34,826 bases of DNA from an uncultured Lachnospiraceae bacterium. GTDB lineage: Bacteria > Bacillota > Clostridia > Lachnospirales > Lachnospiraceae. The notes under the pieces were generated by a model. The model did no database searches. It saw nothing but the letters and a program-made list of their open reading frames with translations, and was not told where the DNA came from. Position 1 is the first letter of the stretch. Every line of letters begins with the position of its first letter. A program made the translations under genes and the position numbers. Below are positions 335-26,864 of the stretch, piece by piece. The stretch is taken from assembly GCA_947594855.1 (NCBI GenBank), contig CANQEL010000024.1, positions 1 to 34,826 of the forward strand, read 5' to 3'.

Positions 335-390
335 CAGGTGCTGCGGAGCGAGGGCAGCGAGAGCGTGCCTGTGTTGGTATGCGAAAACTG
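335..390 (+). repeat. Half copy of a dispersed palindromic repeat (element A)
   Basis: This G+C-rich island stands out in an A+T-rich intergenic region. Its core GCGAGGGCAGCGA, followed by GAGCGTGCCTG and GGTAT, matches the reverse complement of 26476-26507 with about one difference in 24 bases. The matching left arm expected upstream is absent, so this looks like a truncated copy. It lies about 110 bp upstream of the Rpn-family gene. The rest of 228-508 shows no gene. Confidence 0.65.
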
Positions 391-508
391 CGCAATCGGT
401 TACAGGCTATTCCTTGTTTTACAATAAAAGAGTCAACAGACTGTGTGCATATATATTTTCTTGTATCATAAAATATATATAACTACTTTTTAAAGCGTGG
501 TATTATCA

Positions 509-970
509 ATGAAAATTAACATTAAAACCCTTATTATCTGTATAGCTGTCCCATTAGCCGTGGGCGCACTGGCAGCATTTTTAATTAAAGACTCCATACC
601 TCTGTATGCTGCAATGCCCAAACCTCCCCTTGCGCCTCCGGGCTGGCTTTTTCCAATTGTGTGGACTATACTGTACATTCTTATGGGAATAAGCTCATAT
701 CTGGTTTATGTTTCCGATTCACCGTACCGTCAGAGTGCTCTAACCATATATGCCATACAGCTTGTTCTTAACTTCATATGGCCGCTTGTATTTTTTAATA
801 TGCAGAACTATCTTTTTGCCCTGATAATACTTATACTGCTTTGGGCTGCGGTATTCAAAATGATACAGAAATTCCATGCTGTAAGCCCCGTTGCCGCCAA
901 ATTACAGATTCCTTATCTTATATGGCTTACATTTGCCGCATACCTTAATCTTGCAATTTATTTGGCTTGA
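509..970 (+). CDS. TspO/MBR family tryptophan-rich sensory membrane protein
   Basis: The product is a very hydrophobic protein of 153 residues, the normal size for TspO/MBR proteins, with about five predicted membrane spans. The loop after the first span has the family signature MPKPPLAPPGWLFPIVW, followed by further spans and a C-terminal AAYLNLAIYLA helix. TspO proteins bind porphyrins and related ligands and are linked to stress or tetrapyrrole handling; the ligand here cannot be told from sequence. I chose ATG 509. An in-frame GTG at 497 would add four residues, and neither start has a strong Shine-Dalgarno site. The gene lies 54 nt upstream of a CobW-type GTPase on the same strand, so co-transcription is possible. 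Confidence 0.88.
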   Translation: MKINIKTLIICIAVPLAVGALAAFLIKDSIPLYAAMPKPPLAPPGWLFPIVWTILYILMGISSYLVYVSDSPYRQSALTIYAIQLVLNFIWPLVFFNMQNYLFALIILILLWAAVFKMIQKFHAVSPVAAKLQIPYLIWLTFAAYLNLAIYLA

Positions 971-1024
971 CATTAAAAATAAGAGGTATATACTAATAAA
1001 TACTAAGATTTGGGAGGTAATAAA

Positions 1025-2062
1025 ATGGCAAAGATAGATATTGTATCAGGCTTTCTGGGAGCCGGAAAAACTACCCTTATTAAGAAACTTATAAGCGAAG
1101 CATTAAATGGAGAACAGATTGTTTTAATTGAAAATGAATTTGGTGAAATAGGTATAGACGGAGGCTTCTTAAAAGATGCAGGCATTGAAATTACGGAAAT
1201 GAATTCAGGCTGTATATGCTGTTCACTTGTTGGCGACTTCGGAACAGCCTTAAAAGAAGTCATAGATAAATATGCACCTGACCGCATTATTATTGAGCCG
1301 TCAGGTGTAGGTAAGTTATCCGATGTTATTAAAGCTGTACTTGACGTAAAAAAATCCGCGGATATCGAATTAAACAGCGCTGTAACGGTAGTTGACTGCG
1401 GCAAGGCAAAAATGTACATGAAGAATTTTGGTGAATTCTTTAATAACCAGATTGAAAGCGCCGGCTGCGTAATATTGAGCCGTACACAGAGTACTGCAGA
1501 AGATAAAATCCAGGACTGTGTGGACAGGATAAGACAGTTAAATTCAAACGCAGCCATTGTTACTACTCCATGGGAAGAAACCGATGCCAAAGTTATCCTT
1601 GGTGCCATGGAGCATACCAATGTTTTGGACAACCTTATTGAAGAAGTTATACATGACCACGAACACGATCATGAACATTGTGAACATCATCATGACCATG
1701 AGCATCATCACGACCATGAGCATGAGCATCACCACGACCATGAGCATGAGCACCACCACGACCATGAACATGGTCATCATCATGCTGATGATATATTTAC
1801 AAGCTGGGGCAGAGAAACCCCGAAAGTATTTTCAAAGGAAACCCTTACATCCATACTCTCAAAATTATCTGAAACAAACGACTATGGTTTCATATTACGT
1901 GCAAAGGGTATGGTTCAGGGTGAAAATTCTACATGGCTGCACTTTGATTTAACACCGGGAGAATATGAAATACGCGAAGGCGCTGCAGATTATACCGGAA
2001 AATTATGTGTTATAGGTACTGATATTAATGAAGACAAACTTACAGAACTGTTTTTAGGCTGA
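1025..2062 (+). CDS. COG0523/CobW-family GTPase with His-rich metal-binding tract (putative zinc chaperone)
   Basis: This is a 345-residue G3E GTPase. The Walker A motif GFLGAGKTT is at residues 9-17, ENEFGEIGID lies in switch I, and the family's metal-binding GCICC is at residues 62-66. Residues 209-254 are almost entirely His, Asp and Glu in a repeating HDHEHEHHH pattern. Beyond it is the usual CobW C-terminal domain (FDLTPGEYEIREG). COG0523 proteins deliver metals, often zinc, to client enzymes or act in metal homeostasis; the His tract favours zinc or nickel binding. At the position of the guanine-specificity NKxD motif the protein reads SRTQ, which is unusual. ATG 1025 follows GGGAGGT; an in-frame TTG at 1010 lies on the ribosome site itself and is rejected. 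A second CobW-type gene starts 16 nt downstream, so the two very likely form an operon. Confidence 0.9.
   Translation: MAKIDIVSGFLGAGKTTLIKKLISEALNGEQIVLIENEFGEIGIDGGFLKDAGIEITEMNSGCICCSLVGDFGTALKEVIDKYAPDRIIIEPSGVGKLSDVIKAVLDVKKSADIELNSAVTVVDCGKAKMYMKNFGEFFNNQIESAGCVILSRTQSTAEDKIQDCVDRIRQLNSNAAIVTTPWEETDAKVILGAMEHTNVLDNLIEEVIHDHEHDHEHCEHHHDHEHHHDHEHEHHHDHEHEHHHDHEHGHHHADDIFTSWGRETPKVFSKETLTSILSKLSETNDYGFILRAKGMVQGENSTWLHFDLTPGEYEIREGAADYTGKLCVIGTDINEDKLTELFLG
1650..1785 (+). repeat. Degenerate tandem repeat encoding the His-rich tract
   Basis: Short units such as CATGACCATGAGCATCAC recur with small changes inside the CobW-type gene and encode alternating His, Asp and Glu. Such tracts can change length by slippage. 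Open frames seen in other phases here are by-products of the repeat. Confidence 0.85.
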
Positions 2063-2078
2063 TATAAAGGAGAAAATT

Positions 2079-3026
2079 ATGTTTCATCGGGAAATTCCTG
2101 TATTTTTATTTACCGGTTTTCTTGAAAGCGGTAAAACTTCTTTCATCATTAATACGTTAAACCAGGACTACTTTGCAACCGGTGAGCGTACACTTATAAT
2201 TGCATGTGAAGAAGGCGAAATTGAATATAATGTGAAAGATTTACAAAATTCCAACGTATATGTGGAATTTGTTGAAAATGAATCTGATCTCACGCCCGGA
2301 CTTCTTAAAAACTGGAATACGGCGCACAAACCGCGCCGTGTTCTTATCGAATACAATGGTATGTGGAATTTAGATTCAGTTATGGAAGAAATCTATCCTG
2401 AAAACTGGGTACTTACACAGGTCATATCTACCATAGATTATACAACTTTTAATATGTACTGGAACAATATGCGAAGTATGGTTATAAACCAGCTTGCTCT
2501 GTCTGATATGGTTATATTCAACCGTTGCGATGCAACAACAAAAAGAAATGAACTTCGCCGAAGCATAAAAGTATTTAACAAAAAAGCACAGGTGGCATAT
2601 GACTGGGTTGATGGAATAACTGCCGAAGATGTACCGGAGCAGCTTCCTTTTGACATAGATGCTCCCGTTATCAATATAGAAGATGACGATTATGGCATAT
2701 GGTATATGGACGCCATGGAAAATCCGAATAAATATGCGGGAAAAACCGTAAATTATAATTGTCTGTTCTTCAGGCCGTCAAATTATTCAATGGATAAATT
2801 TGTACCGGGCAGATTCGCAATGACCTGCTGTGCTGATGATATAGCATATCTTGGTCTTGTATGCCATACAAAAAGCGATATAGATCTGCCTGAACGTCAG
2901 TGGATTAATATTACCGCAGAGATTAAAGTTGAATATGTAAGGGATTATCATGACCTGGGACCGGTATTATATCTGACCGATATTACCACAGGGGAACGCC
3001 CTGAAGATGATCTTGTGTATTTTTAA
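2079..3026 (+). CDS. CobW-type GTPase fused to a YcgQ-like (DUF1980/TIGR03943-type) C-terminal domain
   Basis: This 315-residue protein begins with a G3E-type GTPase domain: Walker A GFLESGKTS at residues 13-21, and FNRCD as the NKxD-like specificity motif. It lacks the GCxCC metal site that follows switch I in ordinary COG0523 proteins. From about residue 215 the sequence changes to YAGKTVNYNCLFFRP, then PGRFAMTCCADD with Cys 250-251, then QWINITAEI and GPVLYLTDI. That block resembles the C-terminal domain of YcgQ-type proteins, which are linked to zinc homeostasis in Firmicutes. I therefore read it as a fusion that has moved its cysteine pair to the C terminus. The ATG follows AAAGGAG. It is the last gene of the tspO/cobW run and faces a tRNA gene. 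The GTPase part is secure; the C-terminal match is from memory. Confidence 0.78.
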   Translation: MFHREIPVFLFTGFLESGKTSFIINTLNQDYFATGERTLIIACEEGEIEYNVKDLQNSNVYVEFVENESDLTPGLLKNWNTAHKPRRVLIEYNGMWNLDSVMEEIYPENWVLTQVISTIDYTTFNMYWNNMRSMVINQLALSDMVIFNRCDATTKRNELRRSIKVFNKKAQVAYDWVDGITAEDVPEQLPFDIDAPVINIEDDDYGIWYMDAMENPNKYAGKTVNYNCLFFRPSNYSMDKFVPGRFAMTCCADDIAYLGLVCHTKSDIDLPERQWINITAEIKVEYVRDYHDLGPVLYLTDITTGERPEDDLVYF

Positions 3027-3046
3027 TCTAAACATCTAAACACGAA

Positions 3047-3120
3047 TCGGGGCAACAGGATTTGAACCTGCGACCTCACGGCCCCCAGCCGTGCGCGCTA
3101 CCAAGCTACGCCATACCCCG
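3047..3120 (-). tRNA. tRNA-Pro (anticodon GGG)
   Basis: Reading the minus strand, a 7-bp acceptor stem (CGGGGTA with TGCCCCG), a 4-bp D stem, a CACGG/CCGTG anticodon stem with loop CTGGGGG, and a GCAGG/CCTGT T stem with TTCGAAT all fold correctly. Loop positions 34-36 are GGG, which reads CCC/CCU proline codons. The discriminator base is A and no 3' CCA is encoded. Confidence 0.95.
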
Positions 3121-3151
3121 AAAGTCTGAATAATCTCACCCATAGCCACAG

Positions 3152-3179
3152 AATATCATGATTATACTGTTATCGTCAA
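3152..3179 (-). promoter_or_regulatory. Possible promoter of the tRNA-Pro gene
   Basis: On the minus strand TTGACG (3179-3174) is followed after 16 nt by GATATT (3157-3152), about 30 nt ahead of the tRNA. The -35 is good and the -10 is weak, so this is tentative. Confidence 0.4.
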
Positions 3180-3264
3180 TACTTATTTACATTTTGAGGT
3201 TCATCCAGAAACATTTAACATAAATGTATTTTTTATATGTATAAGTAGGGAAGGGAGAAATAAT

Positions 3265-4038
3265 ATGGAAAAAATATATTCTTTGTTGATAGTCTGCAGT
3301 ATGCTTATATTAACCGCATGTGGCGGGACAGGAAGCGCTAAGGAAGAGCAAACCGCGGTTTCACTGGAAACACAGGTGCCGACCGAAAATGAAAAAGTTG
3401 TCTGGTGGGAAAAGACAGAAGATTTAGGCTTGGGAGAAGAAAGCAATATCAGTCTGGAATCTGATGAGGATAATTCGGGATTAAAAATGATTATAGACCA
3501 GTGTGTGGTTGATTTAAGCCAGGAATCACTTCAACATAATAATTATAACTTTACTAAAATATTAAAAAAAGACTGGAACCGTGACGGCGTCATGGAGGTC
3601 TTTTTACTGTTCTACGGCGGTTCGGGAGGAAGTTTTCAAAATTTCCGCATGATTAAATTTGATGGACAAAAATGGAGCGTAATTCCCATGGACTGGAACA
3701 GTGAAGAAGGGTTTGTTGATGTAAAAGCGTTAAAGGATAGTTTTGTGCAGATTAATATAAAAGACCTCGGATATGAAAAAACCGTACAGGTAGCGGGAAA
3801 TGATTACCTGAAAAATGAGGGCAGTAAGGCAGCTGTAGGTTCGGGATATCAGTTTTTCGAACTGTTGGACGATAGTGTTGTAGTGGCATATCGGTTATAT
3901 GCGGATAACTTAGAGAATGGATTCGGGGATTTACAGCAAAAAATCCAGTTGAATCAGGATGGTACACGGTTGATATTTGGGGAAACTAATTATATGCCGA
4001 TTAAAAAAGCGAAAAAAAGAGCTTATGAAATGTATTAA
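3265..4038 (+). CDS. Hypothetical lipoprotein with an EF-hand-like DxNxDG segment
   Basis: The 257-residue product starts with a lipoprotein signal peptide: basic N terminus, hydrophobic core, and lipobox LTAC with the lipidated Cys at residue 19. It should sit on the outer face of the cytoplasmic membrane. After a Glu/Ser-rich linker, residues around 105-140 read KKDWNRDGVMEVFLLFYGG. This resembles the calcium-binding loop (DxNxDGxxE) of FG-GAP/VCBS-type repeats, here as a single unit followed by FRMIKFDGQKW. No catalytic motif is visible. I do not recognise a named family. The ATG follows AAGGGAG at a suitable distance. It appears to be transcribed alone, between a divergent tRNA gene and a convergent ligase gene. 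Confidence 0.8.
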   Translation: MEKIYSLLIVCSMLILTACGGTGSAKEEQTAVSLETQVPTENEKVVWWEKTEDLGLGEESNISLESDEDNSGLKMIIDQCVVDLSQESLQHNNYNFTKILKKDWNRDGVMEVFLLFYGGSGGSFQNFRMIKFDGQKWSVIPMDWNSEEGFVDVKALKDSFVQINIKDLGYEKTVQVAGNDYLKNEGSKAAVGSGYQFFELLDDSVVVAYRLYADNLENGFGDLQQKIQLNQDGTRLIFGETNYMPIKKAKKRAYEMY

Positions 4039-4087
4039 AATACAAAAACGAATGTGACATTTGCATGTCCTGAAAGCAGAATCCATT

Positions 4088-4152
4088 GCCGGATGGGAAG
4101 GATGGAAAAATTGTTACGACCTTATATAATTTTGCCATGCCTCTCATCCGGT
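4088..4152. repeat. Long imperfect hairpin between convergent genes
   Basis: The left arm from 4088 (GCCGGATGGGA ... AAAAATT, to 4112) pairs with the right arm 4129-4152 (AATTTTG ... TCTCATCCGGT). The stem is roughly 23 bp with a few mismatches and G-U pairs, around a loop of about 16 nt. It sits in the 211-bp gap between the lipoprotein gene and the convergent paaK. No clear T-run follows on either strand, so a terminator role is possible but unproven. No gene is visible in this gap. Confidence 0.5.
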
Positions 4153-4249
4153 ATAATATTGGCGTCCGAGGTGCATCATGAAATTCATCAGAACTTATAT
4201 CTGCAAAATACCTCTGTCGCCATTTGGTATAATCGGTCATCTGTAGTTA

Positions 4250-5572
4250 TTACTTCCCAATCTTACTCTCTTCAAACAGATTCCTCTTATCAATAACCCT
4301 GACAGCCTTGCCCTCGCTTCTCGGTATGGTCTTTGGCTCAACAAGATGAACCTCTACTCCGATTCCAAGCATTGACTTCAGGGAAGAAACAAGCTTCTTT
4401 TCCCTGCCCGCCTTATCAGCATCATCTGCCGGCGGATTTTCAGGAATCCACTCCACATCACAGGAAATTGTATCGCTGTTATTTACTCTGTCTACAACAA
4501 GCTGATAATTTGCTTCATAACCATTGTTAAGAAGAACTGTCTCTATCTGTGAAGGGAATACGTTTACCCCTTTAACAACCATCATATCATCACTACGGCC
4601 AAGAGGTTTGCTCATCCTTATATGTGTTCGGCCGCAGGAACATTTCTTACGCGAAAGCACGCATATATCACGTGTACGGTAACGAAGCAGCGGAAATGCC
4701 TTCTTGGTTATACATGTAAATACCAGCTCGCCTTTTTCACCCTCCGGAAGTACTTCACCTGTATTAGGGTCAATAATCTCAGCTATAAAATGGTCTTCAT
4801 TAATGTGCATACCGCGCTGTTCACTACATTCAAAAGATACGCCCGGACCGCTGATTTCGGTAAGTCCATATATATCATAAGCCTTTATTCCAAGTGATTC
4901 TTCAATATTGTGGCGCATTTCCTCAGTCCATGCCTCTGCGCCAAATATACCTGCCTTAAGTTTAATCTGGTCTTTAACGCCCTTCTCCTTAATGCTTTCA
5001 CCCAAAAATGCCGCATAAGAAGGAGTACAGCAAAGAATAGTAGAACCAAGGTCTGTCATAAACTGAATCTGCCGGTCGGTATTACCTGATGACATCGGAA
5101 GTGTAAGGGAACCAACCATATGTGAGCCTCCATTAAGACCCGGACCTCCTGTAAACAACCCATAACCGTAACATACATGTACAACATCGTCTTTCGTTCC
5201 GCCTGCTGCCACAATTGCCCTTGCACAACAAGTATCCCATATATCAATATCATCCTGCGTGTAAAAAGCAACTACACGTCGCCCTGTAGTTCCGCTTGTT
5301 GACTGAATACGAACACATTCTGAAAGTGGAACTCCAAGAAGTCCATACGGATACTGATCACGAAGATCATCCTTATTAATAAACGGAAGTTTATGTAAGT
5401 CCTCAATACCGTGGATATCTTCCGGCTTTACACCTGCTTCATCCATTTTGTTATGGTAAAACTGAACGTTATTATATACATGTTTTACCTGTTCCACCAG
5501 TCTCTCGCTTTGGAGTTTTTTAATATCCTCCACCGCCATGGTTTCAATTTCGGGATTAAAATAATTTGACAT
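4250..5572 (-). CDS. paaK: Phenylacetate-CoA ligase (AMP-forming, PaaK family)
   Basis: The 440-residue product is full length for PaaK-type ligases, which join phenylacetate or related aryl acids to CoA using ATP. The adenylate-forming P-loop STSGTTGRR is at residues 91-99. YGLTEISGPGV follows in the middle (the usual YG-TE motif), then the LLRYRTRD core motif and VKGVNVFPSQIE near the C-terminal lid. A CSCGR segment lies in the lid region, as in many family members. No other phenylacetate or indolepyruvate genes are nearby, so the true substrate is open; clostridial homologues often work with indolepyruvate:ferredoxin oxidoreductase. The start follows TAGGAGGT. The gene has its own promoter and is monocistronic in this window. 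Confidence 0.92.
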   Translation of the reverse strand: MSNYFNPEIETMAVEDIKKLQSERLVEQVKHVYNNVQFYHNKMDEAGVKPEDIHGIEDLHKLPFINKDDLRDQYPYGLLGVPLSECVRIQSTSGTTGRRVVAFYTQDDIDIWDTCCARAIVAAGGTKDDVVHVCYGYGLFTGGPGLNGGSHMVGSLTLPMSSGNTDRQIQFMTDLGSTILCCTPSYAAFLGESIKEKGVKDQIKLKAGIFGAEAWTEEMRHNIEESLGIKAYDIYGLTEISGPGVSFECSEQRGMHINEDHFIAEIIDPNTGEVLPEGEKGELVFTCITKKAFPLLRYRTRDICVLSRKKCSCGRTHIRMSKPLGRSDDMMVVKGVNVFPSQIETVLLNNGYEANYQLVVDRVNNSDTISCDVEWIPENPPADDADKAGREKKLVSSLKSMLGIGVEVHLVEPKTIPRSEGKAVRVIDKRNLFEESKIGK

Positions 5573-5612
5573 GTTGTACCTCCTAATACATTTGTTTTTA
5601 CTACATTTTACA

Positions 5613-5641
5613 ATTATATCATCTAAACTGCCTCAAAGCAA
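5613..5641 (-). promoter_or_regulatory. Sigma-A-type promoter of paaK
   Basis: On the minus strand TTGCTT (5641-5636), a 17-nt spacer and a perfect TATAAT (5618-5613) lie about 40 nt upstream of the ligase start. The -35 overlaps the hairpin that follows the upstream gene. Confidence 0.65.
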
Positions 5642-5658
5642 CATATACGGCAGTTTTA
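5627..5658 (-). terminator. Possible hairpin terminator of the pth-mfd-foldase-glycosidase run
   Basis: AAACTGCC and GGCAGTTT form an 8-bp stem around a loop of about 15 nt, overlapping the stop codon of the large secreted protein. The T-tract is short (GTTT), so termination may be weak. The arms also overlap the paaK -35 region. Confidence 0.4.
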
Positions 5659-8600
5659 ACCCCTGTACCGCCATATAACGGTTTTACTCCATTTGCCGTA
5701 CACCCTCTTTTGGCCGTTTACCTTATATGCCTTTATTCTTATGTAATATTTTCTGCCGGCTTTAAGATGCTTTATCTTTATTTTTACTAATTTGCCTTTC
5801 TTTATGCTGATAGTTTTCAATTTCTTGTTTAATTTCTTATTTAATGCATACTGAAGCTTGTAACCGTCTGCCATGACATCTTTTTTCCATTTTACGGTAA
5901 GCCTCTTATTTTTCGTTAATTTTAATTTTAAGATTTTTACCCTGCCCGGTCTTTTATTCGTATCATTATCTGATATAACATTGCCGGTATCCGAAACAGG
6001 GTTTTTTAAAACATCCAGTCTGTCAGCTGCTGCCGGATTATCCGCTGCGTCAGGCTTGTCAGTTGCCGCCGGTTCTTCTGCTGCACTAGGCTTATCTGTT
6101 GCCGCCGGTTCTTCTGTTACATCTGGCTTATCCGTAACATCCGGTTTCTCTTCATATATTTTTGCCGGAGCAATTTCAAAATTATCAAGTCTCGGTGTAA
6201 AATCATCCTGCAGCGAACTGAATTTATATGAGTTATCATTTGAGATGGTTATTGTATTTGTTCCTTCTTTTAATACGACATCCATCACTGTATTTTTATA
6301 AGTATCCCAGCATAAAGTATTTCTGCAATATACCGTCTGAGGGGATTCCCCATTGACCTCAACCTGTACATACCTTTCTACAAGGTCTGTATTATATGGA
6401 TGTACATAATATTCTCCGTACTGTGTTATCATAACCGGAGCAGGCTCATTATTGGAATACCTTATCGATAATACATAATCACCCGCTTTGGGCACATTCA
6501 CATTAAATATCAGCTTATTATCCGAACCTCCTCTGAATCCTTCTACCGCCTTTCCTCCTACCGCGTATTCTGTTTCAATTACTTTTGGCACTGCTTCACT
6601 GCCCGGCAGATAATTATAACCATCTTCTTTTTTGGTTCCTGACAATTCACAATCTTCGGCCTCTTTTAGAATAACCGCTTTTTCTGTCTTTTCCCTGTCC
6701 TCGGTAAATATCATTCTATCTATGCTATTACCTTCAGCATACAAATGGTTCATGCCCGAAACAAGATATACATATCCTCCGTTTTCTGCCTCTGCGCTAA
6801 TATCAAAAAGCTTTATCCGGCTTATATTTATATCTGCATCTGCCTTTGCATTTTCAGCATAATTCACCTTATATTTTGAAATTGCTGTACTTTCCTTCCC
6901 TGAAACAACGGCTTTATAATATCCATCGCGTGGTGCGCATACGTAAAAATCATAACCGCCTGTTTCTTTGTTTTGTTTTAAGAATTCTTCTTCTCCTACC
7001 GTTATTACTGCGTTTTCATAGGGTTCATAGGTGAGGTCGATTTTATCAAGCGTTGCGCAAAGTATCGAATCTAATTCTTTTATATTCTGGTTATCACCCT
7101 CATACATTAATAATATCCTATGGCTTCCTGCCGACAGGTCTGTATATATTGTCTTATAATTATAATATCCCCATTTTACCGTAGAATCATATATTATTTC
7201 CTGTTTTGGTCCGCCATCTATGGATAACATATGGCGGCTAAGCGCTCCGATAGCTCTGTTCTGTCCTCCGCTGTCCACATATTCTAATGTAAGTGGGTCT
7301 ACCTGCGGCGCCTGACTGCTATAATAAATATTCATCCGGTATCTTCCGTTATAAGGCACATTTACAGTAAATTCCACCCCGTCATTTTCGGTATTCATAT
7401 GACCCACATCATAACGGTTTGAACGTGCAAGCGCGCCATCGTCTGTCTGTTCATACTTTTCCGCACCGCCAATCAGCTTTGCGTTTTCCGCCTCATATGT
7501 TTCTTCCCAGTTCTTTGTATAATCTTTAACCGTTGTATTTGCATCATTTTTTGCAGGCATTATCACTGCAAAATACGCATCGGTTAATTCTGCGTCAGGC
7601 ACAGTAAATATTAAATCATTTCCGGAAAATGAAAGATTCCCCTCAAACTGTAACGGAGTCGTATCTGCAAATCCCTGCTGCCCTGTATACTTAGTTCTAT
7701 AAATCCTAACATATGCATTTTTCTCATCCTTAAATGTCTGCGTAGAACATATATTTTCAATACTTACCGTCTGATTACCTGCCTGTCCTCCAAACAGGCT
7801 GTATATAATTCCTGCCTCATCATCTGCGCTCGTGAGTCCGTATAATCCCCCATATGCCCCAAAAGGTTTGGTATTCTCGGCAGTAAGCGGCATTTTATCC
7901 CCGCTCATTTCGGCATACCACTTATATACCCACCATGCGCCATTTGGTTTATTCGTATCCGCCGCAAGCTCATTTAAACTGTTTGCAAGTCCCCAAAAGG
8001 GAAGCGACGCATATACATTCTGCTCCTCAAAAACAGACAGCCAGCCTACAAGCGCGCCCGGATTACCAATATCTGAGAAATTAACTGTTTCATTAATAAA
8101 TATTTCAGGCTCTATTCCTGAGCCGGTATAATATGTATTAATATAATTTTTTACTTCATCACACCTTGCGGCAAAGCTTCCCAGTCTGTATTTCTGAAGT
8201 TCATGCCATGTTATATATTCCGGCAGACATTTGTTACGTTTGCAGAATTCAAAAAATGTTTTATAATCATTACTGTCATAGAGCGAATAATTAGGACCGG
8301 CAACCTTTAAAGCCGGATTAATATTTTTTACTGTTTTATATATTGTCAGCCAGTCCCTGCACAGAGCGTTGATATTCTCCCCGTACCATATCATATCTGG
8401 CTCATTAAAAAGTACAAAACTGTAGTGGGATAATTCCTCTTTGCTCTTTCCTTTTACCATTTTAGTTACAACGGTCTTTACTTTTTCGTTGTAATCATCT
8501 ATTCCATTATATTCATAAGGCCATTCCAGATAATAATCCTGAATATACACCTGAATATTTTCCACGCCGCACTCACGCAAAAACGGCGTCAGCCTGTATG

Positions 8601-8901: not shown

Positions 8902-8914
8902 AATCATCTCTCTT

Positions 8915-14089: not shown

Positions 14090-14129
14090 CCGTATCATTT
14101 GTCACTACATCAATATTAAATACTTACCC

Positions 14130-15449: not shown

Positions 15450-15489
15450 AACAAATTTCCCCTCTCCAGTATATTTTATTACAAGCCTT

Positions 15490-15519
15490 ATTATATAATT
15501 ACTTCATATTAGATGTCAA
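15490..15519 (-). promoter_or_regulatory. Sigma-A-type promoter of the esterase gene
   Basis: On the minus strand a perfect TTGACA (15519-15514) is separated by 18 nt from a perfect TATAAT (15495-15490), about 40 nt upstream of the esterase start. It begins right at the spoVAF stop codon. Confidence 0.8.
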
Positions 15520-16947: not shown

Positions 16948-16976
16948 ATCCATCAACTCCAAAAATATTTACAACT

Positions 16977-17005
16977 TAGTATGTGAAAATAAATGGTAAA
17001 TATTC
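16977..17005 (-). promoter_or_regulatory. Sigma-G-type (forespore) promoter of spoVAF
   Basis: On the minus strand GAATA (17005-17001), a 17-nt spacer and CATACTA (16983-16977) agree with the Bacillus sigma-G consensus GHATR and CATNHTA. It lies about 30 nt upstream of the spoVAF start, and expression in the forespore is what the gene needs. Confidence 0.65.
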
Positions 17006-17066
17006 ATGGAACTATTAGTTTTAATATGTTAAAATATAGTCCGTACTGCAAAAGGAGGCATCGTAT

Positions 17067-17243
17067 ATGTCGTTACCAAAAGACCCCGTAATACTTTTAA
17101 GTTATATTAATACGCTTTTAAGAGACAAATATAGCAGCCTTACGGAACTGTGTTCTTCCATGTCCATATGTATGTCGGATATCACAGAACCCCTGGCTGC
17201 TATTGATTATACTTATAACGAAAAAACCAATCAGTTTGTATGA
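17067..17243 (+). CDS. DUF4250 family microprotein
   Basis: A 58-residue open frame with a strong AAAGGAGG site seven nt before its ATG. It starts MSLPKDPVILLSYINTLLRD and ends YTYNEKTNQFV. This pattern (MxLPxDPxxLLSYIN ... LRDxYxSLxELC ... LAAIDYxYxExxNQFV) is that of the DUF4250 family, small cytosolic proteins of unknown function found widely in Clostridia. No signal peptide or membrane span is present. It is divergent from spoVAF, and its last 13 bp overlap the 3' end of glgB on the other strand. Function unknown; the family call comes from memory of the family pattern. Confidence 0.88.
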   Translation: MSLPKDPVILLSYINTLLRDKYSSLTELCSSMSICMSDITEPLAAIDYTYNEKTNQFV

Positions 17244-19459: not shown

Positions 19460-19494
19460 AGAATCCACTCCTGTATTTTATTATCCCTGCAATG

Positions 19495-21231
19495 CTAAGC
19501 AGTTATCGAATCAATCATTTTAATTACCGAATCGGCAAATGATTTTGATTTCTTCTCTGCATCATTGAGATTATCCGCTACTATTCCATAGTAAAATTTA
19601 ACCTTTGGCTCAGTACCTGACGGCCTCACACAGAACCATGCATTATTATCAAGCTCATAATAAAGAACATTTGACTTTGGAAGCCCTGTCTCTGTAATAT
19701 TGCCTGTTGCCATATCAGTTATCGTATTCAGCTCATAATCCCTTGCAGCAAGAACTTTGTATCCGCCTACCTCTTTTGGTGTGTTTTTACGGAGAGAATC
19801 CATTATTGCCTGTATCTTTTCAAGTCCTTCCTTACCCTTCATTGTAATTGCCGTAACGTCATCTTTGTAATAACCGTATCTCTCGTACATATCAAGCATG
19901 GCATCCCATAAAGACTTGCCCCTGGTTTTATAATATGCTGCTGCCTCGCATAACTTCATAACAGCAACAATTGCGTCTTTATCGCGCGCATGTGTTCCCA
20001 CAAGGCATCCGTAACTTTCCTCAAAACCAAAAAGATAATGACCCTTTCCGCTCGTTTCAAATTCAAGTATCTGCTGTCCTATATATTTAAATCCTGTAAG
20101 AACTTCAATAAGCTTTACCCCGTAATACCGCGCAATGGCGTCTGCCATATTCGACGACACAATTGTTTTTACCAGTACTCCGTCAGAAGGAAGGCCTTCT
20201 ACAGCTTTTCTCTGTCCGATTTCATAATCGCCTATAAGACATCCTGACATATTGCCTGTAAGAGTAATATATTCACCGCTTTCAGTATCCTTAACATATA
20301 CCCCAAGCCTGTCTGCGTCAGGGTCTGTAGCAAGTATGATATCCGCATCCTTTTCTTTTGCAAGTTTAAGCGCAAGCTCAAACGCTTCTGCAGCTTCAGG
20401 GTTAGGATAACTTACGGTTGGGAATTCACCGTCAGGAAGCTCCTGCTCAGGGACAATATATACATTTTTGAATCCTATTTCCCTAAGAATCCTTCTTGCA
20501 GGAATGTTTCCGGTTCCATGAAGCGGAGTATACACAATTTTAATACTATCGCCTACTTCATCTATACACTCCTGATGAATAATGAGCTTCTTAAGTTCTG
20601 CAATATATTTATCATCAACAGCCTGTCCGATAACCTCATATAAACCTTTGGATACAGCTTCTTCTTTTGGCATTGTTTTAACGGTATTGTAATCCGTTAC
20701 AGCCTTTACTTCAGCCATAATGCCCGTATCATGAGGCGGAGTAATCTGCGCGCCGTCCTCCCAGTATACTTTATATCCATTATATTCAGGAGGATTGTGG
20801 CTTGCCGTAATGTTAATGCCGGCAATACAGCCAAGCTCCCTTACTGCAAACGAAAGTTCCGGCGTTGGCCTTAGGCTTTCAAATACATATGCTTTTATTC
20901 CGTTTGCCGCCAGACATAACGCGGCTTCATCTGCAAATTCCGGAGACATCCTTCTGGAATCGTAAGCAATTGCCACTCCTTTTGATGAGCCTTTCTGCTT
21001 AATAATATAATTGGCAAGTCCCTGTGTTGCCTTACGTACCGTATATATATTCATGCGGTTCGTTCCCGCACCGATAACTCCTCTGAGTCCTGCCGTACCA
21101 AATTCAAGTTCTTTATAAAACCTGTCCTGTATTTCCTGCTCGTTTCCGGCAAGTTCTTTAAGCTCCCGTATTGTAGCTTCGTCAAAATATGGATTATTAA
21201 TCCATGACTGGTATATCTCCTTATAATCCAT
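19495..21231 (-). CDS. Phosphoglucomutase (alpha-D-phosphohexomutase family)
   Basis: This 578-residue enzyme interconverts glucose 1-phosphate and glucose 6-phosphate. The phosphoserine loop ITASHNPPEYNGYK sits near residue 140, the metal-binding loop DPDADRLGV near 305, the sugar-binding GFEESYGCL near 400, and the phosphate-binding RPSGTEPKVKFYY near the C terminus. All four domains of the family are present. Length and motifs match the Firmicute PgcA/Pgm group rather than the shorter phosphoglucosamine mutases. The ATG is eight nt after GGGAGG. A strong promoter lies upstream, and glgB follows after a short gap, so the pair likely links glucose-phosphate supply to glycogen branching. Confidence 0.94.
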   Translation of the reverse strand: MDYKEIYQSWINNPYFDEATIRELKELAGNEQEIQDRFYKELEFGTAGLRGVIGAGTNRMNIYTVRKATQGLANYIIKQKGSSKGVAIAYDSRRMSPEFADEAALCLAANGIKAYVFESLRPTPELSFAVRELGCIAGINITASHNPPEYNGYKVYWEDGAQITPPHDTGIMAEVKAVTDYNTVKTMPKEEAVSKGLYEVIGQAVDDKYIAELKKLIIHQECIDEVGDSIKIVYTPLHGTGNIPARRILREIGFKNVYIVPEQELPDGEFPTVSYPNPEAAEAFELALKLAKEKDADIILATDPDADRLGVYVKDTESGEYITLTGNMSGCLIGDYEIGQRKAVEGLPSDGVLVKTIVSSNMADAIARYYGVKLIEVLTGFKYIGQQILEFETSGKGHYLFGFEESYGCLVGTHARDKDAIVAVMKLCEAAAYYKTRGKSLWDAMLDMYERYGYYKDDVTAITMKGKEGLEKIQAIMDSLRKNTPKEVGGYKVLAARDYELNTITDMATGNITETGLPKSNVLYYELDNNAWFCVRPSGTEPKVKFYYGIVADNLNDAEKKSKSFADSVIKMIDSITA

Positions 21232-21283
21232 TCATGTATCCTCCCTTAATTTTATTAAATAAATATAATTAAAAAACTAATTA

Positions 21284-21312
21284 ATTATACCAATTTTTTG
21301 GTTTTTTTTCAA
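21284..21312 (-). promoter_or_regulatory. Sigma-A-type promoter of the phosphoglucomutase-glgB operon
   Basis: On the minus strand TTGAAA (21312-21307), a 17-nt A+T-rich spacer and a perfect TATAAT (21289-21284) lie about 50 nt upstream of the ATG. Confidence 0.8.
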
Positions 21313-21328
21313 CCTTATTTTGCCATTA

Positions 21329-22315
21329 TTACTTGATTTTATCTACGAATTTCATACGGTTATCAAACTGCTCATTTAACAGTGTAAGCTTTTTCATGTT
21401 TTTTTCCGTCATAAGCGTTTTTTTACCGTTCATATAATAGCTTGACAACTTCCAGAATTTTTCCGGATACATCAAAAGAATGGCAAGAATATGCCTTTCC
21501 TCCCCGCTAAGTTTTTTGACGCTCTCATAGCCGTTTATTACAGCCTCTCCGTATTTTATATCCCATTCATTTTTCTCCATAACCTTTCTGATAAAATAAT
21601 ACAAATCCATTATCTGCATACCAAATGCACATTTATCAAACACGGTAGTTGCAATGCCTTCATCACACATTAATATATTATGGTAGGTGTACGAGCCATG
21701 ATAAACTTCCCCTTTATCATATACCCGGGAATACATATCTGCATATGCGCTTTCATACAGCATATCCGCCGCGCTTTTAGCCTGCTCAAAATACATCGGA
21801 AATACTTTTAAAAAGGCTATTTCAAATTCATTTTTATCATTATGGGATCTTATATAATTTTTTATATGCTTAAGTTCAGCATTGTGGCGTTTAAATACCT
21901 GAGACATATTTTCCGTTGTAGTGCATACATCTCTGTTTTCGGATTTAATGCCTCTCATACTTATATGAAGCCTGCCCATATTTTCTGACGCCATGTATAT
22001 ATCATCTAAACTTTTCAGGTCACATTCATCGCCAATATACCAGTCCTTTATGACATACCGCGCTCCGCTCTGGTCTGCGCTGCTTATATTACCTTCATTA
22101 TTAAGGCAGAAACTGTCTATTCTATCAAATCCATTTTTTTTAATATGTGTCTTTATCATATTTTCCCATACAAGCCTTGTTGCAGATGTATGGGTTTCCT
22201 TAATAAGTTTATAACCCCTGTCTGTTTCAAAGAGTACCGCTCCACGTACTCTTTTTGCCCCCTTTACCTCAAAATCATATTTTGCAAGCACCTCATCATA
22301 TCTGTCCTCCAACAA
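21329..22315 (-). CDS. CotS-like spore-coat-associated kinase-fold protein
   Basis: A 328-residue protein with the layout of CotS/CotI-type spore coat proteins, which belong to the aminoglycoside-phosphotransferase/protein-kinase fold. An N-terminal lobe includes AVLFETDRGYKLIKETH. The catalytic-loop segment reads VYHGSYTYHNIL near residue 208, with Ser where active phosphotransferases usually have Asp (HGDxxxxN). The later VFDKCAFG block keeps the Asp of the metal site, and DLYYFIRKVMEKN follows, as in CotS proteins. It may be a catalytically weakened member with a structural role in the spore. The start must be TTG (22315 or 22312), five or eight nt after AGGAGG, as no in-frame ATG is nearby. 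A sporulation role is inferred from the family. Confidence 0.72.
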   Translation of the reverse strand: MLEDRYDEVLAKYDFEVKGAKRVRGAVLFETDRGYKLIKETHTSATRLVWENMIKTHIKKNGFDRIDSFCLNNEGNISSADQSGARYVIKDWYIGDECDLKSLDDIYMASENMGRLHISMRGIKSENRDVCTTTENMSQVFKRHNAELKHIKNYIRSHNDKNEFEIAFLKVFPMYFEQAKSAADMLYESAYADMYSRVYDKGEVYHGSYTYHNILMCDEGIATTVFDKCAFGMQIMDLYYFIRKVMEKNEWDIKYGEAVINGYESVKKLSGEERHILAILLMYPEKFWKLSSYYMNGKKTLMTEKNMKKLTLLNEQFDNRMKFVDKIK

Positions 22316-22386
22316 TAACCCTCCTTTTCCGACTGTTTTGTCGGCAAAATGTGTCTGTTCAATATTTATGAAAATACGGCCTTATA

Positions 22387-22410
22387 TATTCTTACAAATA
22401 ATTAAGAATA
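22387..22410. repeat. Perfect 8-bp inverted repeat in the cotS-like/DUF885 divergent region
   Basis: TATTCTTA, an 8-nt spacer and TAAGAATA form a perfect dyad 49 bp upstream of the DUF885 gene and 72 bp upstream of the divergent CotS-like gene. It could be an operator; there is no direct evidence of a binding protein. Confidence 0.35.
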
Positions 22411-22458
22411 CTTACCTTTATTATGAATAGATTATTGTAACAGGAGGAATGATTGATT

Positions 22459-24255
22459 ATGCGACGTCACTTAACCAGACTGCTTTGCCTTTTTTTAACA
22501 ATATTTCTTATAGCCGGATGCGGCGGTAAAAACACTCCGCCTGTAAATGATATTTCCCCGGTTTCCGACAGCGCTCTTTCCGCAGACGGCGAATCGGCTG
22601 CAGCTGAATTTAAAGCTTTATGTGATGAACTTTTCTCACATATGCTGCTCTCTGACAGTATTACACTTAATTACTCGCTTTCAGACCCGTCTGTATATGG
22701 AATTACTAAAACACCGGCAACACTTGGGGAGTATTCCGAAGAATCCGTTTTAGTTGAAAATATTTATTATGAAAATATCCTTACCCGTCTTAATAATATT
22801 GATAAAAATTCTTTATCGGAAAAAGACTGTCTTACATACGATATTATTTACAAAACACTTTCCCAATATGCCCGGTCTGAAGATTATGTTCTTTATGAAG
22901 AGCCGCTTTCCCCGATATCCGGAATACAGGCAAAACTTCCCGTACTTCTTGCCGAATATCATTTTTATAATATTGAAGCGATTGAAAAATATTTTGACAT
23001 TATCGAATGTATCCCCGGCTATATTAATAATATAATTGAATTTGAGCAGAAGAAAAAAGAAGCCGGTCTTTTCATGAGTGATTCACAGGCAGATGAAATA
23101 ATTAAGCAGTGCATGGATTTTATATACAGTCCTGACAATAATTATCTTATAAAAATATTTAAAGATAACATATCTGCTGTAGAAGGCTTAACAGAAGAAC
23201 AGGTTAAAAACTACTGCGCCCAAAACAAAAAGCTGGTTATTGAAACACTTATCCCTTCTTACAAAACATTAATTAATTCACTTTCAGAATTAAAGGGAGG
23301 CACTTCGGTATCAGGCGGCCTCTGCCATTTTCCAAAAGGAAAAGAGTATTACACTGCCCTCGTTCATTCACAGACAGGTTCAGAAAAATCACCAAAAGAA
23401 ATATACTCCCTTCTTGAGTCAACCCTTGCCTCATGCCAGAAAAACATGGCACGTATTGTCTCAGCCAATCCCGATATATACGACAACATAAGCAATCCTG
23501 CATTTGCCGAATCGGAACCCGATGCAATCATGCAGTATCTTATAGCAAATACGGGCAATACTTTTCCTGCCCCTGCAAATAAATATACTATAAAATATGT
23601 ACATCCTTCACTTGAAAATACCCTGAGCCCTGCAATGTATATTACCCCTCCAATTGATTGTGAAACAGCAGATTCAATATACATTAACCGGGCGTCGACA
23701 GGTGACTCATCCCTGTTTCCAACACTCGCGCACGAAGGTTATCCGGGACATATGTGCCAGACCAGAACTTTCATGGCGACATCGCCTCACCCGGTAAGGC
23801 TTATACTTGATTTTGGGGGTTACTGCGAAGGCTGGGCAACCTATGCGGAACTTTTATCTTATGATATATCTGGCCTTGACAGCAATGTAGCCGAACTTCT
23901 AAAAAATAATAAACTTGCTATATTATGTATATACTGCCTTATTGACGTAGGAATACATTACTACGGCTGGGATATGTCCGACGTCTGCAAACTGCTTAAC
24001 GACAACGGAATAACAGACGCTTCCGACATAGAAGAGATATATTCAGGGGTACTTTACGAACCGGCTCTCTATCTCAAATATACCCTTTCCTGCCTTGAGT
24101 TTATGAGTATGAAGGAACGGTCGGCAAAAGCGCTTGGCAGCAGCTTCAGCGCATACAAATTCCATGAATTTATACTCACCACCGGGCCTGCATGGTTTGA
24201 CATACTTAATGAACAGCTTGACATATGGATTAAACAATGTTTATCAGATACTTAA
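22459..24255 (+). CDS. DUF885-family metallopeptidase-like lipoprotein
   Basis: The 598-residue product has a lipoprotein signal with lipobox LIAGC (Cys 21), so it should be anchored outside the cell. The C-terminal half carries the DUF885 metal signature AHEGYPGHMCQT (HExxxxH, His near 425) and GYCEGWATYAE about 30 residues later, which would supply the third zinc ligand. The family is related to M3-like gluzincin peptidases but substrates are mostly unknown. The N-terminal half is mostly helical, as is usual. ATG 22459 lies 11 nt after AGGAGG, while an in-frame TTG at 22453 lies five nt after it; either is possible. pckA follows from its own promoter. Confidence 0.85.
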   Translation: MRRHLTRLLCLFLTIFLIAGCGGKNTPPVNDISPVSDSALSADGESAAAEFKALCDELFSHMLLSDSITLNYSLSDPSVYGITKTPATLGEYSEESVLVENIYYENILTRLNNIDKNSLSEKDCLTYDIIYKTLSQYARSEDYVLYEEPLSPISGIQAKLPVLLAEYHFYNIEAIEKYFDIIECIPGYINNIIEFEQKKKEAGLFMSDSQADEIIKQCMDFIYSPDNNYLIKIFKDNISAVEGLTEEQVKNYCAQNKKLVIETLIPSYKTLINSLSELKGGTSVSGGLCHFPKGKEYYTALVHSQTGSEKSPKEIYSLLESTLASCQKNMARIVSANPDIYDNISNPAFAESEPDAIMQYLIANTGNTFPAPANKYTIKYVHPSLENTLSPAMYITPPIDCETADSIYINRASTGDSSLFPTLAHEGYPGHMCQTRTFMATSPHPVRLILDFGGYCEGWATYAELLSYDISGLDSNVAELLKNNKLAILCIYCLIDVGIHYYGWDMSDVCKLLNDNGITDASDIEEIYSGVLYEPALYLKYTLSCLEFMSMKERSAKALGSSFSAYKFHEFILTTGPAWFDILNEQLDIWIKQCLSDT

Positions 24256-24296
24256 ATTGTTCATATCTTCTTTAAACACAATTCACTTTATTTTGC

Positions 24297-24325
24297 TTGA
24301 CTTTTATGCCGCTCAAATCTATAAT
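24297..24325 (+). promoter_or_regulatory. Strong sigma-A-type promoter of pckA
   Basis: TTGACT (24297-24302), a 17-nt spacer and a perfect TATAAT (24320-24325) lie about 80 nt upstream of the pckA ATG. The leader from about 24332 contains small alternative hairpins (24328-24355). Confidence 0.85.
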
Positions 24326-24403
24326 AGGAAGCAAATTTGGCTTCGCGGAAGCGAATCTTTAAATATATTTATACGAATTTACTATTTAGGAGGTAATAAG
24401 GAA

Positions 24404-26095
24404 ATGGCAACAAAAGCAAATTATCCAATCAGTGAAATTGGAAAAGGTAAAGTTGGCTTCTCAAAAACCCGTTCTATTATTGAAGCAGCTTTCTATGGTA
24501 ACAACGTAGTTCCGGTTAATACCCTTAAAGAGGCTTATAATCTTGCAAAGAATTCACCGGGAACCATCGTAACAGACATGCCTGTTTACAGAGGTGAAGA
24601 ATTTGGTCTTGACAGCGATGCAAAAGTTCTTCTTTTCAATGACGGCGCAGTTACAGGCCGTTATGCAGCAGCACGCCGAATCAAGGGTGAGCCCGGTGTA
24701 GATGAGGTTAAGCTCGATAAGGTTGTTATGGATGCTATATATGAAACACGTTGGAAGAAAATGTATCATGCAACCGTATTCGTAGGTCTTGACCCTGAAT
24801 TCATGGTTAAAGCTCATCTTCTTATTCCGGAAGGAGAAGAGAATATAATGTATAACTGGATGCTTAACTTCCAGTATATGTCTGATGAGTATGTAAAGAT
24901 GTACAAGGAATCTGTTCCTGTAGGCGGTGGAAACGAGCCTGATATCTATATCTTCTCTGACCCACAGTGGTATCCGCAGGAGCGTCCTGACGTTGATTAC
25001 AGCTGCTTAAGCGACCCGCTTACATGCTGCTATTTTGATACAAACGAAAACTGCGCTGCAATTCTTGGTATGAGATACTTCGGCGAACACAAGAAAGGTA
25101 CACTTACAATGGCTTGGGCTATTGCTAACAGAAACGGTTATGCTTCATGCCACGGCGGACAGAAAGAGTACACTCTTCCTGACGGCAGCAAATATGTTGC
25201 ATCCGTATTCGGACTTTCAGGTTCAGGTAAATCAACACTTACGCATGCTAAGCATGGCGGCAAATATCCTATTACAGTTCTTCATGATGACGCATTTATC
25301 ATCAACTCAGATACATGCTCATCTGTAGCGCTTGAGCCTACTTACTTTGACAAGACTGCAGATTATCCTACAGGCTGCGATGACAACAAGTATCTGCTTA
25401 CTGCACAGAACTGTTCAGCAACACTTGATGATGAGGGCAAACTTCAGTTAGTAACAGAGGATATCAGAAACGGTAACGGACGTGCTATCAAGTCAAAACT
25501 CTGGTCACCAAACCGTGTTGACAAGATTGACGCTCCTGTTAACGCAATCTTCTGGATTATGAAAGATCCTACAATTCCTCCTGTAGTTAAGCTCAAGGGA
25601 GCAGCTCTTGCTTCAGTTATGGGAGCAACTCTTGCAACCAAGACTTCTACTGCAGAACGTGTTAAGGCAGGAACAGACCTGAATGCGCTTCGTATCGTTC
25701 CTTACGCTAACCCATTCAGGACTTATCCTCTCGTAAACGACTATGAGAAGTTCAAGAAGCTCGTTGCTGAGAAGAACGTTGACTGCTACATCGTAAACAC
25801 AGGTGATTTCATGGGCAAAAAGGTTCAGCCTAAGGATACTCTTGGAATCCTAGAAGCAATCGTAGAAAGAAAAGCTTCATTTGAAAAATGGGGACCATTT
25901 GAAGACATTGAAATCATGAACTGGGAAGGATTTGTACCTGACCTTAATGATGCTGACTACAAAGCACAGCTTAAGAGCGCAATGGAGAACCGTGTACACG
26001 CAGTAGAAGGCTTTGCAACTGATAAAGACGGTTATGATAAACTTCCTGATGAAGCTCTTGAAGCTCTTAAGAAACTTGTTGACGCATTGAGCTAA
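24404..26095 (+). CDS. pckA: Phosphoenolpyruvate carboxykinase (ATP)
   Basis: The 563-residue enzyme converts oxaloacetate and ATP to phosphoenolpyruvate, or the reverse in fermenting bacteria. The kinase-1 P-loop FGLSGSGKSTLTHAKHGG is near residue 272, and the kinase-2-like ITVLHDDAFII follows. TSTAERVKAGTD and the nearby NPFRTYPLVNDYEK are in the C-terminal part. ATG 24404 comes shortly after TAGGAGGT. The frame stays open upstream into the end of the DUF885 gene, but that extension reads as non-conserved sequence. Codon use is cleaner and richer in GCT/CTT than in its neighbours, which suggests high expression. No clear terminator follows: the trp leader promoter begins only 11 nt after the stop codon. 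Confidence 0.96.
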   Translation: MATKANYPISEIGKGKVGFSKTRSIIEAAFYGNNVVPVNTLKEAYNLAKNSPGTIVTDMPVYRGEEFGLDSDAKVLLFNDGAVTGRYAAARRIKGEPGVDEVKLDKVVMDAIYETRWKKMYHATVFVGLDPEFMVKAHLLIPEGEENIMYNWMLNFQYMSDEYVKMYKESVPVGGGNEPDIYIFSDPQWYPQERPDVDYSCLSDPLTCCYFDTNENCAAILGMRYFGEHKKGTLTMAWAIANRNGYASCHGGQKEYTLPDGSKYVASVFGLSGSGKSTLTHAKHGGKYPITVLHDDAFIINSDTCSSVALEPTYFDKTADYPTGCDDNKYLLTAQNCSATLDDEGKLQLVTEDIRNGNGRAIKSKLWSPNRVDKIDAPVNAIFWIMKDPTIPPVVKLKGAALASVMGATLATKTSTAERVKAGTDLNALRIVPYANPFRTYPLVNDYEKFKKLVAEKNVDCYIVNTGDFMGKKVQPKDTLGILEAIVERKASFEKWGPFEDIEIMNWEGFVPDLNDADYKAQLKSAMENRVHAVEGFATDKDGYDKLPDEALEALKKLVDALS

Positions 26096-26105
26096 TTTTT
26101 AGCAC

Positions 26106-26134
26106 TTGACATTGTCACCTTTGTGTGATATTGT
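26106..26134 (+). promoter_or_regulatory. Promoter of the trp operon
   Basis: A perfect TTGACA (26106-26111), 17-nt spacer and TATTGT (26129-26134), directly upstream of the T-box leader. Transcription would start near 26141. Confidence 0.8.
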
Positions 26135-26140
26135 ATATAA

Positions 26141-26430
26141 AATTTAATAATTAAACCGTAGAGACGGAGATAAAAATAAGATAAGAACTTACAGAGAGTC
26201 CGGGATGCTGGGAACCGGACAGCCACTGCTTATTAAATGGGCCGTTGAGGGCACAGTCAAAAGCATAATATGCCTAGTATTCTGTGACGTTATGACTTAC
26301 GTTAACAGTCGGAAATATGATAGTATTTCGCAAAGTGTATGGCATTACAGCCATAAAGCAAGGTGGCACCACGGGTTATTAACTCGTCCTTGGCAGGTAA
26401 TAATAATATATCTGCCAGGACGAGTTTTTT
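26141..26430 (+). promoter_or_regulatory. Tryptophan-specific T-box riboswitch leader
   Basis: Hallmarks of a T-box leader are present in order: an AGAGA motif (26191-26200 area), the distal stem I hairpin GTCCGGGATGCTGGGAACCGGAC, a specifier region ATTAAATGGGCC with TGG at 26238-26240, and the conserved T-box AAGGTGGCACCACGG at 26360-26374, followed by a terminator. UGG is the Trp codon. The antiterminator bulge TGGC ends in C, which would pair with a G discriminator base, as tRNA-Trp has. Uncharged tRNA-Trp should stabilise the antiterminator and allow reading into trpE. The exact stem boundaries were judged by eye. Confidence 0.92.
26381..26430 (+). terminator. T-box-controlled intrinsic terminator
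   Basis: AACTCGTCCTTGGCAG pairs with CTGCCAGGACGAGTT around an A/T-rich loop, followed by TTTTTT. The 5' arm lies just behind the T-box sequence, as needed for a switch with the antiterminator. Confidence 0.93.
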
Positions 26431-26440
26431 AATGCGAGTT

Positions 26441-26610
26441 GTATAGGTGTATATGCGATTATCGGGGTTTACGATACCACCGCAGGCACGCTTTCGCTGC
26501 CCTCGCCACGCAGCGGTACTAAGGCGTTTCTTACGCACCGCCTAAGTACCGGCGGGCTCACAGCACCTGCGTGTGGTATGTAAACCCCGATAACCGCCAT
26601 AACCTGATAC
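26441..26610. repeat. Long fold-back repeat (element B) in the trp leader
   Basis: Imperfect arms of about 40 bp (26441-26480 and 26573-26610) share ATCGGGGTTTAC and ATACCAC. Inside is a second hairpin (GGTACTAAGGCG at 26515-26526 with CGCCTAAGTACC at 26539-26550), and the core 26482-26507, whose reverse complement matches element A. No gene is visible; possible frames here are short and unsupported. Together with element C it makes up most of the 488-bp stretch between the terminator and trpE. Confidence 0.8.
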
Positions 26611-26713
26611 ACATCGGACAAAACCTGCAGTATGTCATAAACTCCCTGTACTTTCCGGTTAAAACTTTGTAAAATTACATTAATTATCTCTCAGGCTTTT
26701 GCGATTGTACATA

Positions 26714-26864
26714 CTGTATCATGCACATTTATTGTCTGACGGTACCGTGTGACGCCGCCGGTACTTAGTTTGCGGAAAGTATTTTTCGCAAACTTATGTA
26801 TCCGCTGCGTGCGGAGCCGAGTGAGAACGTGTACCGGAAGACAATACAATGTTGCACGATACAG
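26714..26864. repeat. Long fold-back repeat (element C) in the trp leader
   Basis: Arms 26714-26745 and 26831-26864 (CTGTATCATGCAC and ATTGTCTGACGGTAC against their complements) enclose an inner hairpin AGTTTGCG/CGCAAACT (26767-26774 with 26787-26794). The interior GCCGGTACTTAG and CCGCTGCGTG match element B read in reverse, so both are members of one family with different outer arms. Confidence 0.75.

Follow-up and report, generated by a model that had tools for sequence, protein, structure and literature searches.

A family of covarying foldback repeats in Lachnospiraceae, often arranged in divergent pairs and sometimes joined to TwoAYGGAY

Short, dispersed, non-coding and self-complementary sequences, mostly intergenic, are familiar from bacteria as miniature inverted-repeat transposable elements (MITEs) and as intergenic repeats such as ERIC, RUP, Correia and BOX. 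Hairpins in alternating orientation with strand-specific recognition are the mark of REP/BIME sequences and RAYT, and integron attC sites carry variable self-complementary arms whose structure is recognised on one strand. TwoAYGGAY (clan CL00106) is, to our knowledge, an orphan RNA, a candidate since 2010 without a known function; it consists of an outer stem topped by a conserved, branched tip, is dispersed in multiple copies within the Lachnospiraceae and forms divergent pairs. Here we describe a foldback repeat of about 150-220 bp that is like each of these systems in the respects just given, and that was recognised as elements A, B and C in a contig of an uncultured Lachnospiraceae bacterium (GenBank assembly GCA_947594855.1, CANQEL010000024.1, 34,826 nucleotides, the whole of which is called the window below).

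We read B, C and A as members of a mobile, non-autonomous foldback family that is recognised via a strand-specific fold, most likely as RNA, and that often comes as two divergent modules, the second being sometimes of TwoAYGGAY type; we put the probability of this reading at roughly 0.6. The initial annotation had described B and C as fold-back structures sharing a core on opposite strands, and this was borne out by predicted energies of -92.9 kcal/mol for B and -79.2 kcal/mol for C, equalled by none of 200 shuffles in either case, and by a core model that places the B core on the minus strand and the C core on the plus strand (Table 1). Element A had been noted to repeat the core without its other half. 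It retains CAGGTGC, the GAG-rich right half and the right arm, the latter similar to the right arms of three other loci (L002-L004), and is without the terminal hairpin and the left arm (all judged by eye); its surroundings fold no better than shuffles (z -0.41). A is a deletion remnant of an element of subfamily S2. Beyond what had been annotated initially, the structure has a strand, its neighbours are mostly divergent, and TwoAYGGAY can be the partner.

The conserved part of the element is a tip, borne on long, drifting self-complementary arms. It is made up of a two-base-pair stem, a three-way junction with an A linker, a GC-GNRA-GC mini-hairpin, a CGGTAC stem carrying a pyrimidine-T bulge, and a terminal hairpin, often with a 7-nt GUNNUNU loop. 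A covariance model, R1, was built from an alignment (A2) of 13 own-genome copies and covers a core of 25 pairs. The initial annotation had proposed such a search, with a lack of further copies to count against a family; R1 returned 38 rows from the 2.48 Mb genome at E <=1, in addition to many matches in relatives. Among these rows 34 are full length and reach at least 59.6 bits, and the other four are one copy cut near a contig end, two weak rows that overlap at a single site, one per strand, and A. Besides, GCCGGTACTTAG occurs 12 times in this genome, against 0 for the reversed control. The copies split into subfamilies with differing arms.

The compensatory change suspected at the outset was found in the core. 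In the 13 own-genome copies 96.0% of the cells are paired and 12 of the 25 pairs show change on both sides; four of five measures beat nearly all shuffles, and the fifth, further pair types, stood at 20 against 18.4 and was reached by 123 of 500 shuffles. A wider alignment of 108 distinct copies from many genera (A6) kept 95.2% of cells paired, with both-side change in 23 of 25 pairs and a covariation score of 0.530 against 0.170 for shuffles, none of 500 shuffles matching it on any of the five measures; these counts lean toward the model because the alignment was fitted by R1, and the shuffles ignore relatedness. Slid controls of A6 gave 8-13 both-side pairs and 22-44% paired cells. The 100 sources chosen for it were 52 loci taken from genome records, where 80 were listed out of at least 120, together with 48 others.

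Unpaired positions are kept as well. A block parse of A6, from which two N-bearing copies were dropped and whose hairpin finder gave a bonus to G in the first and A in the fourth loop position, found GNRA in 102 of 106 mini-hairpin loops; of the same copies, 104 keep the T that follows P2, 103 keep the A linker and 105 keep the pyrimidine-T bulge. The terminal hairpin loop has 7 nt in 69 of the 106 copies and the form GTNNTNT in 64. In a second set, in which G first and A fourth were required and the third base was free, all 89 loops were GNRA. The third base is a purine in every one of the 89 and the 106 loops. Stable DNA tetraloops tolerate GNNA, and the purine at this position therefore favours RNA over DNA.

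The outer arms, said in the initial annotation to differ among copies and yet to be self-complementary within each, behave in this manner both in the own genome and in relatives, with a few low scorers (e.g. L063, score 2). Comparison of B and C with their orthologues in G007 covered 119 pairs, of which 105 are unchanged, four are changed on both sides and still pair, two are changed on one side and still pair, and one is lost. The arms also carry a signal of strand. Over the first 16 columns, G-U accounts for 49 isolated mismatches and A-C for 15 (88 of 89 copies). With one element per genome from 28 genomes, G-U exceeds A-C by 13 to 2 in 16 columns (p 0.007) and by 23 to 6 in 24 columns (p 0.002), and for 28 copies of the other genomes in the genus by 27 to 10 in 24 columns (p 0.008). 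Since the tip too is strand-specific, selection would be on a single strand in its folded form, most likely RNA copied from the element. An earlier publication (PMC2864571) uses G-U pairs and GNRA loops as strand signs for a different element.

R1 matches eight of ten genomes of the genus, the own one included, and, at E <=1e-5, at least 110 of 299 genomes of the family; the latter count is a floor, because at most 14 candidates were scored per genome and stricter filters were applied. Across the class, 11 of 391 genomes matched at E <=1e-6, all 11 from the same family. An exact core pattern was found in at least 120 stretches of named genome records, and among the 80 titles listed 37 are Lachnospiraceae and most others are Clostridia-type genera or orders; viral contigs gave no match to one exact core pattern. 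That the family is not one with a name held up, as no Rfam match fell on the element itself in the window, in six loci at E <=1 (only T-box) or in six G046 loci at E <=5. What Rfam does recognise in element-bearing loci are T-box, tRNA, lysine and ZMP-ZTP riboswitches off the element and TwoAYGGAY on neighbouring units, further rows being weak, sub-threshold and likewise off the element. In full-text literature searches, no paper among those listed describes the hairpin element, as judged by title and abstract opening. A strongly covarying structure without an Rfam 15 match is present in more than a third of the sampled family genomes, and the window's own genome holds dozens of copies. In G046, locus L197 holds a variant with a GTAGCGAAAGCGTGCC right half and a different core, which may point to subfamilies beyond those that the model detects.

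The initial annotation had asked whether close strains show empty sites, and sites without the element do exist in G006 and G007. The distance between matched flanks is 828 bp in G000 and 81 bp in G006, which lacks the C1:94395/94977 pair; at the C1:88349 unit, which G007 lacks, it is 334 bp in G000 and 12 bp in G007. The trp locus varies too: B and C are both present in the sister genome G007, G006 has a short remnant hairpin in their place, and G009 shows no similar sequence. Ten G046 copies, selected because their scores were equal or close, have near-identical cores at different places, which probably reflects recent spread. The whole composite unit of about 600-640 bp occurs there at no fewer than 20 places, the query's own included, with 83-93% identity to the query unit (40 of 122 candidates scored). 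The pattern of its AAACTGYAGNTTA-like termini matched 116 times in G046, each palindromic site counting twice, and the reversed control not at all, so that dispersed similar copies with terminal inverted repeats, the feature by which bacterial MITEs are recognised, are present in G046. Among 100 of the 116 terminus matches listed, no unit above about 1 kb was seen by eye, and transposases were not searched for. Solo TAAACTGCAGTTTA sites were considered as empty targets and rejected, most of those read being unit ends.

Modules of the family tend to stand back to back: among 21 pairs of neighbours no more than 700 bp apart, 17 are divergent, with core-to-core distances among neighbouring modules of 76-523 bp. 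The own-genome and genus hits entered this count nearly completely, omitting A, two weak C8 rows, one partial row of G002 and one weak row of G008; A6 source loci entered only if they had two hits, and family and class rows were close neighbours picked by eye among the matches listed. The 21 pairs are partly dependent, since they include the window pair and its G007 C1 orthologues, two tandem copies on C2, and loci from the same or related organisms (L231/L275 and L210/L218). The spacers between the divergent modules of L231 and L275 have a self-complementary look and are perhaps the outer arms of both modules or a third foldback.

The second module can be of another kind. Six G046 loci were scanned, and in four of them the composite's remaining half matches TwoAYGGAY (RF01731) on the opposite strand, at 69.8-95 bits against a gathering score of 43; divergent element/TwoAYGGAY pairs occur in five genera. 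They were met in Lachnospiraceae bacterium GAM79 (L247, one of 18 loci scanned), in G189 (L091, one of 20) and in two of 30 TwoAYGGAY loci (L375 of G277 and L364 of G069); G069 holds a second divergent pair on C73, at 41861-42027 minus and 42162-42279 plus. Most scanned loci of either kind show no partner of the other. TwoAYGGAY itself matches at least 42 of the 299 family genomes, often in multiple copies (at most nine candidates scored per genome), and none of the ten genomes of the window's genus, where 14 control genomes were also without a match. It pairs with itself in divergent orientation twice in G017 and also in G046, G217 (among the matches listed) and L365, and in the same direction once in G175; two of 20 loci in the L365 set have a second copy.

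Several observations weigh against a mobile family read through a strand-specific fold. Ten of the 80 listed titles name Gastranaerophilales or Muribaculum/Muribaculaceae, which are of other phyla; all are metagenome-assembled genomes of one isolate series, and mis-binning is possible. Seven of the 119 pairs of B and C compared with G007 are broken. In the own genome only (33 copies), G-U and A-C mismatches number 19 and 13, which is not significant (p 0.38), and in the core, where G-U stands at 56 against 20, a single position (T-G) supplies 35. The mini-hairpin loop is not GNRA in four of 106 copies (AAAA in three, AGGA in one). As for pairing, four of the 21 neighbours are not divergent (three same-direction, one convergent), and in L368, one of the 30 TwoAYGGAY loci, element and TwoAYGGAY lie about 1 kb apart in convergent orientation. 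At the two loci read where a relative is without the element, no clean target-site duplication was seen, and a terminator-like hairpin stands in G006 in place of the G000 pair (by eye), so that replacement is possible. Ten neighbouring ORFs (open reading frames) gave five ordinary Pfam families and five without a match, and no transposase or reverse transcriptase was tied to the element, in a scan in which no genome was searched for transposases.

The initial annotation offered two possibilities, structured RNA or a mobile repeat recognised by its hairpin, and covariation, dispersal and presence differences support this reading. We infer from the strand bias and the loops that the folded form would be RNA, and surmise that the folded strand may be bound by a trans-acting protein, be it a transposase, a reverse transcriptase or an RNA-binding protein of the host. 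Such binding would be what kept and spread the element and might explain why copies lie where they do, the arms being required merely as a long stem. A rather unlikely variant dispenses with RNA and has the folded DNA recognised by an HUH/Y1-type transposase, as in REP or IS200/IS605 ends, or by a recombinase. The strand-specific fold and the dispersal fit it, GCGAAAGC also forms very stable DNA mini-hairpins, and at 30 own-genome loci no orientation toward neighbouring ORFs stands out (heuristic ORF calls); the invariant purine in the loops nevertheless points to RNA, and the linked partner, TwoAYGGAY, is modelled as RNA. Quasi-palindromes kept near-perfect by template-switch correction, with neither recognition nor selection on the fold, would give arms that are self-complementary, differ among copies and change in step between orthologues, as observed, yet they predict no strand bias, whereas G-U exceeds A-C, the GNRA loop is strand-specific and the unpaired bases of the tip are kept. 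We disfavour this explanation as very improbable.

Foldbacks might instead act in cis at mRNA 3' ends, ending or protecting transcripts and being duplicated with gene ends rather than transposing. In at least seven of ten G046 copies a convergent reading frame has its stop within the end of the element, the terminator-like hairpin of G006 occupies the position of the G000 pair, and three own-genome genes of leucine-rich-repeat (LRR) type have an element downstream (all by eye). We nonetheless think this unlikely, because copies lie in either orientation between co-directional ORFs of the own genome, B and C lie in a leader rather than at a gene end, a scan of 26350-26930 gave no terminator-like site (the same scan also missed the T-box terminator seen by eye), and the flanks of the G046 copies differ outside the repeated unit (by eye). 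Doubtful, too, is a small RNA serving as a protein sponge, modelled on the suggestion in PMC4333381 that TwoAYGGAY is a CsrA-binding RNA. The divergent pairs with TwoAYGGAY would suit it, but the loops are mostly GNRA and GTNNTNT and not the GGA-in-loop site of CsrA, and the copies are dispersed and some degenerate, unlike a single dedicated small-RNA gene. Returning to a mobile family with an RNA fold, we tentatively consider that it belongs to a bacterial class resembling short interspersed elements (SINEs), in which two divergent structured RNAs with interchangeable tips, the element and TwoAYGGAY, sit on drifting palindromic stems and share a machinery that reads the folded RNA. If so, TwoAYGGAY would be one tip type of a mobile element and not a regulator. 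A fold read as RNA during spread would make the family a bacterial counterpart of SINEs; if it is not so read, the element should nevertheless be annotated as a structured intergenic sequence and left out of naive regulatory inference, for instance in the trp leader.

B and C are situated between the terminator of the trp T-box and an ORF that we take, from its position and sequence, to be trpE. Read-through of the T-box would put both inside the trpE leader transcript, and an effect on the trp operon is conceivable on this arrangement. Weak promoter-like matches number five in 26350-26930 against 1.2 expected, and no conserved promoter is evident by eye in the spacers between divergent modules. 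A tRNA gene (RF00005) lies elsewhere in the window, at 3047-3120 on the minus strand.

Table 1. Features of the window that bear on the foldback elements.
Feature	Position	Strand or placement	Evidence
T-box leader of trp operon (context)	26150..26394	+	Rfam RF00230, 96.5 bits, gathering 93
T-box terminator hairpin and T-run	~26382-26430	follows leader	by eye
Element B, foldback repeat, subfamily S2	26441..26610	- (GNRA strand)	fold z -6.56; core 26482-26570, 93.0 bits, E 2.1e-23
B mini-hairpin GC-GAAA-GC	26490..26497	-	sequence
B-C spacer	26611..26713		5' sides of both cores point into spacer
Element C, foldback repeat, subfamily S1	26714..26864	+ (GNRA strand)	fold z -6.52; core 26740-26836, 90.3 bits, E 1.4e-22
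C mini-hairpin GT-GAGA-AC	26821..26828	+	sequence; stem covaries among copies
Element A, S2 deletion remnant (core right half and right arm)	334..405	+	model match 334-372, 28.8 bits, E 2.1e-4
ORF 3' of C (context; presumed trpE)	26919..28349	+	ORF list; family search not made

Elsewhere in the own genome, the copies at L036, L038 and L044 lie downstream of similar LRR protein genes (by eye), and some copies may therefore have duplicated along with genes. Candidates for a mobile gene beside the element were set aside: a 476-aa frame beside three copies had the look of one and reads as an LRR protein (by eye), the gene lying between the inverted copies C1:139907 and 142433, considered as a transposase, encodes an LRR protein (PF13306), and a gene fragment between the divergent C1:94395 and 94977 gave no Pfam match in two hand-translated pieces. 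By eye, this fragment (L135, 8560-8960) resembles a disrupted small gene whose promoter and start are plausible.

Compared with the described systems, the element differs from MITEs, ERIC, RUP, Correia and BOX in its covarying GNRA tip, in arms conserved in pairing rather than in sequence and in its divergent pairing. No transposase with matching ends was met, in work that included no transposase search, and the two loci read showed no clean target duplication. The element is longer than REP/BIME units and has a three-way-junction tip; unlike attC, it shows no cassette arrays in the loci read and different conserved boxes, integrases not having been searched for. TwoAYGGAY has two hairpins with AYGGAY-type loops where the element has the GNRA mini-hairpin and the CGGTAC hairpin, and no score above gathering falls on the element itself, RF01731 lying on the neighbouring unit and the other strand. 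In G046, however, units of both kinds have similar AAACTGYAGNTTA-like termini (by eye) and are fused into composites. Divergent pairing with the element gives the orphan TwoAYGGAY a genomic context and a testable idea, namely that both may be tip modules of one mobile unit.

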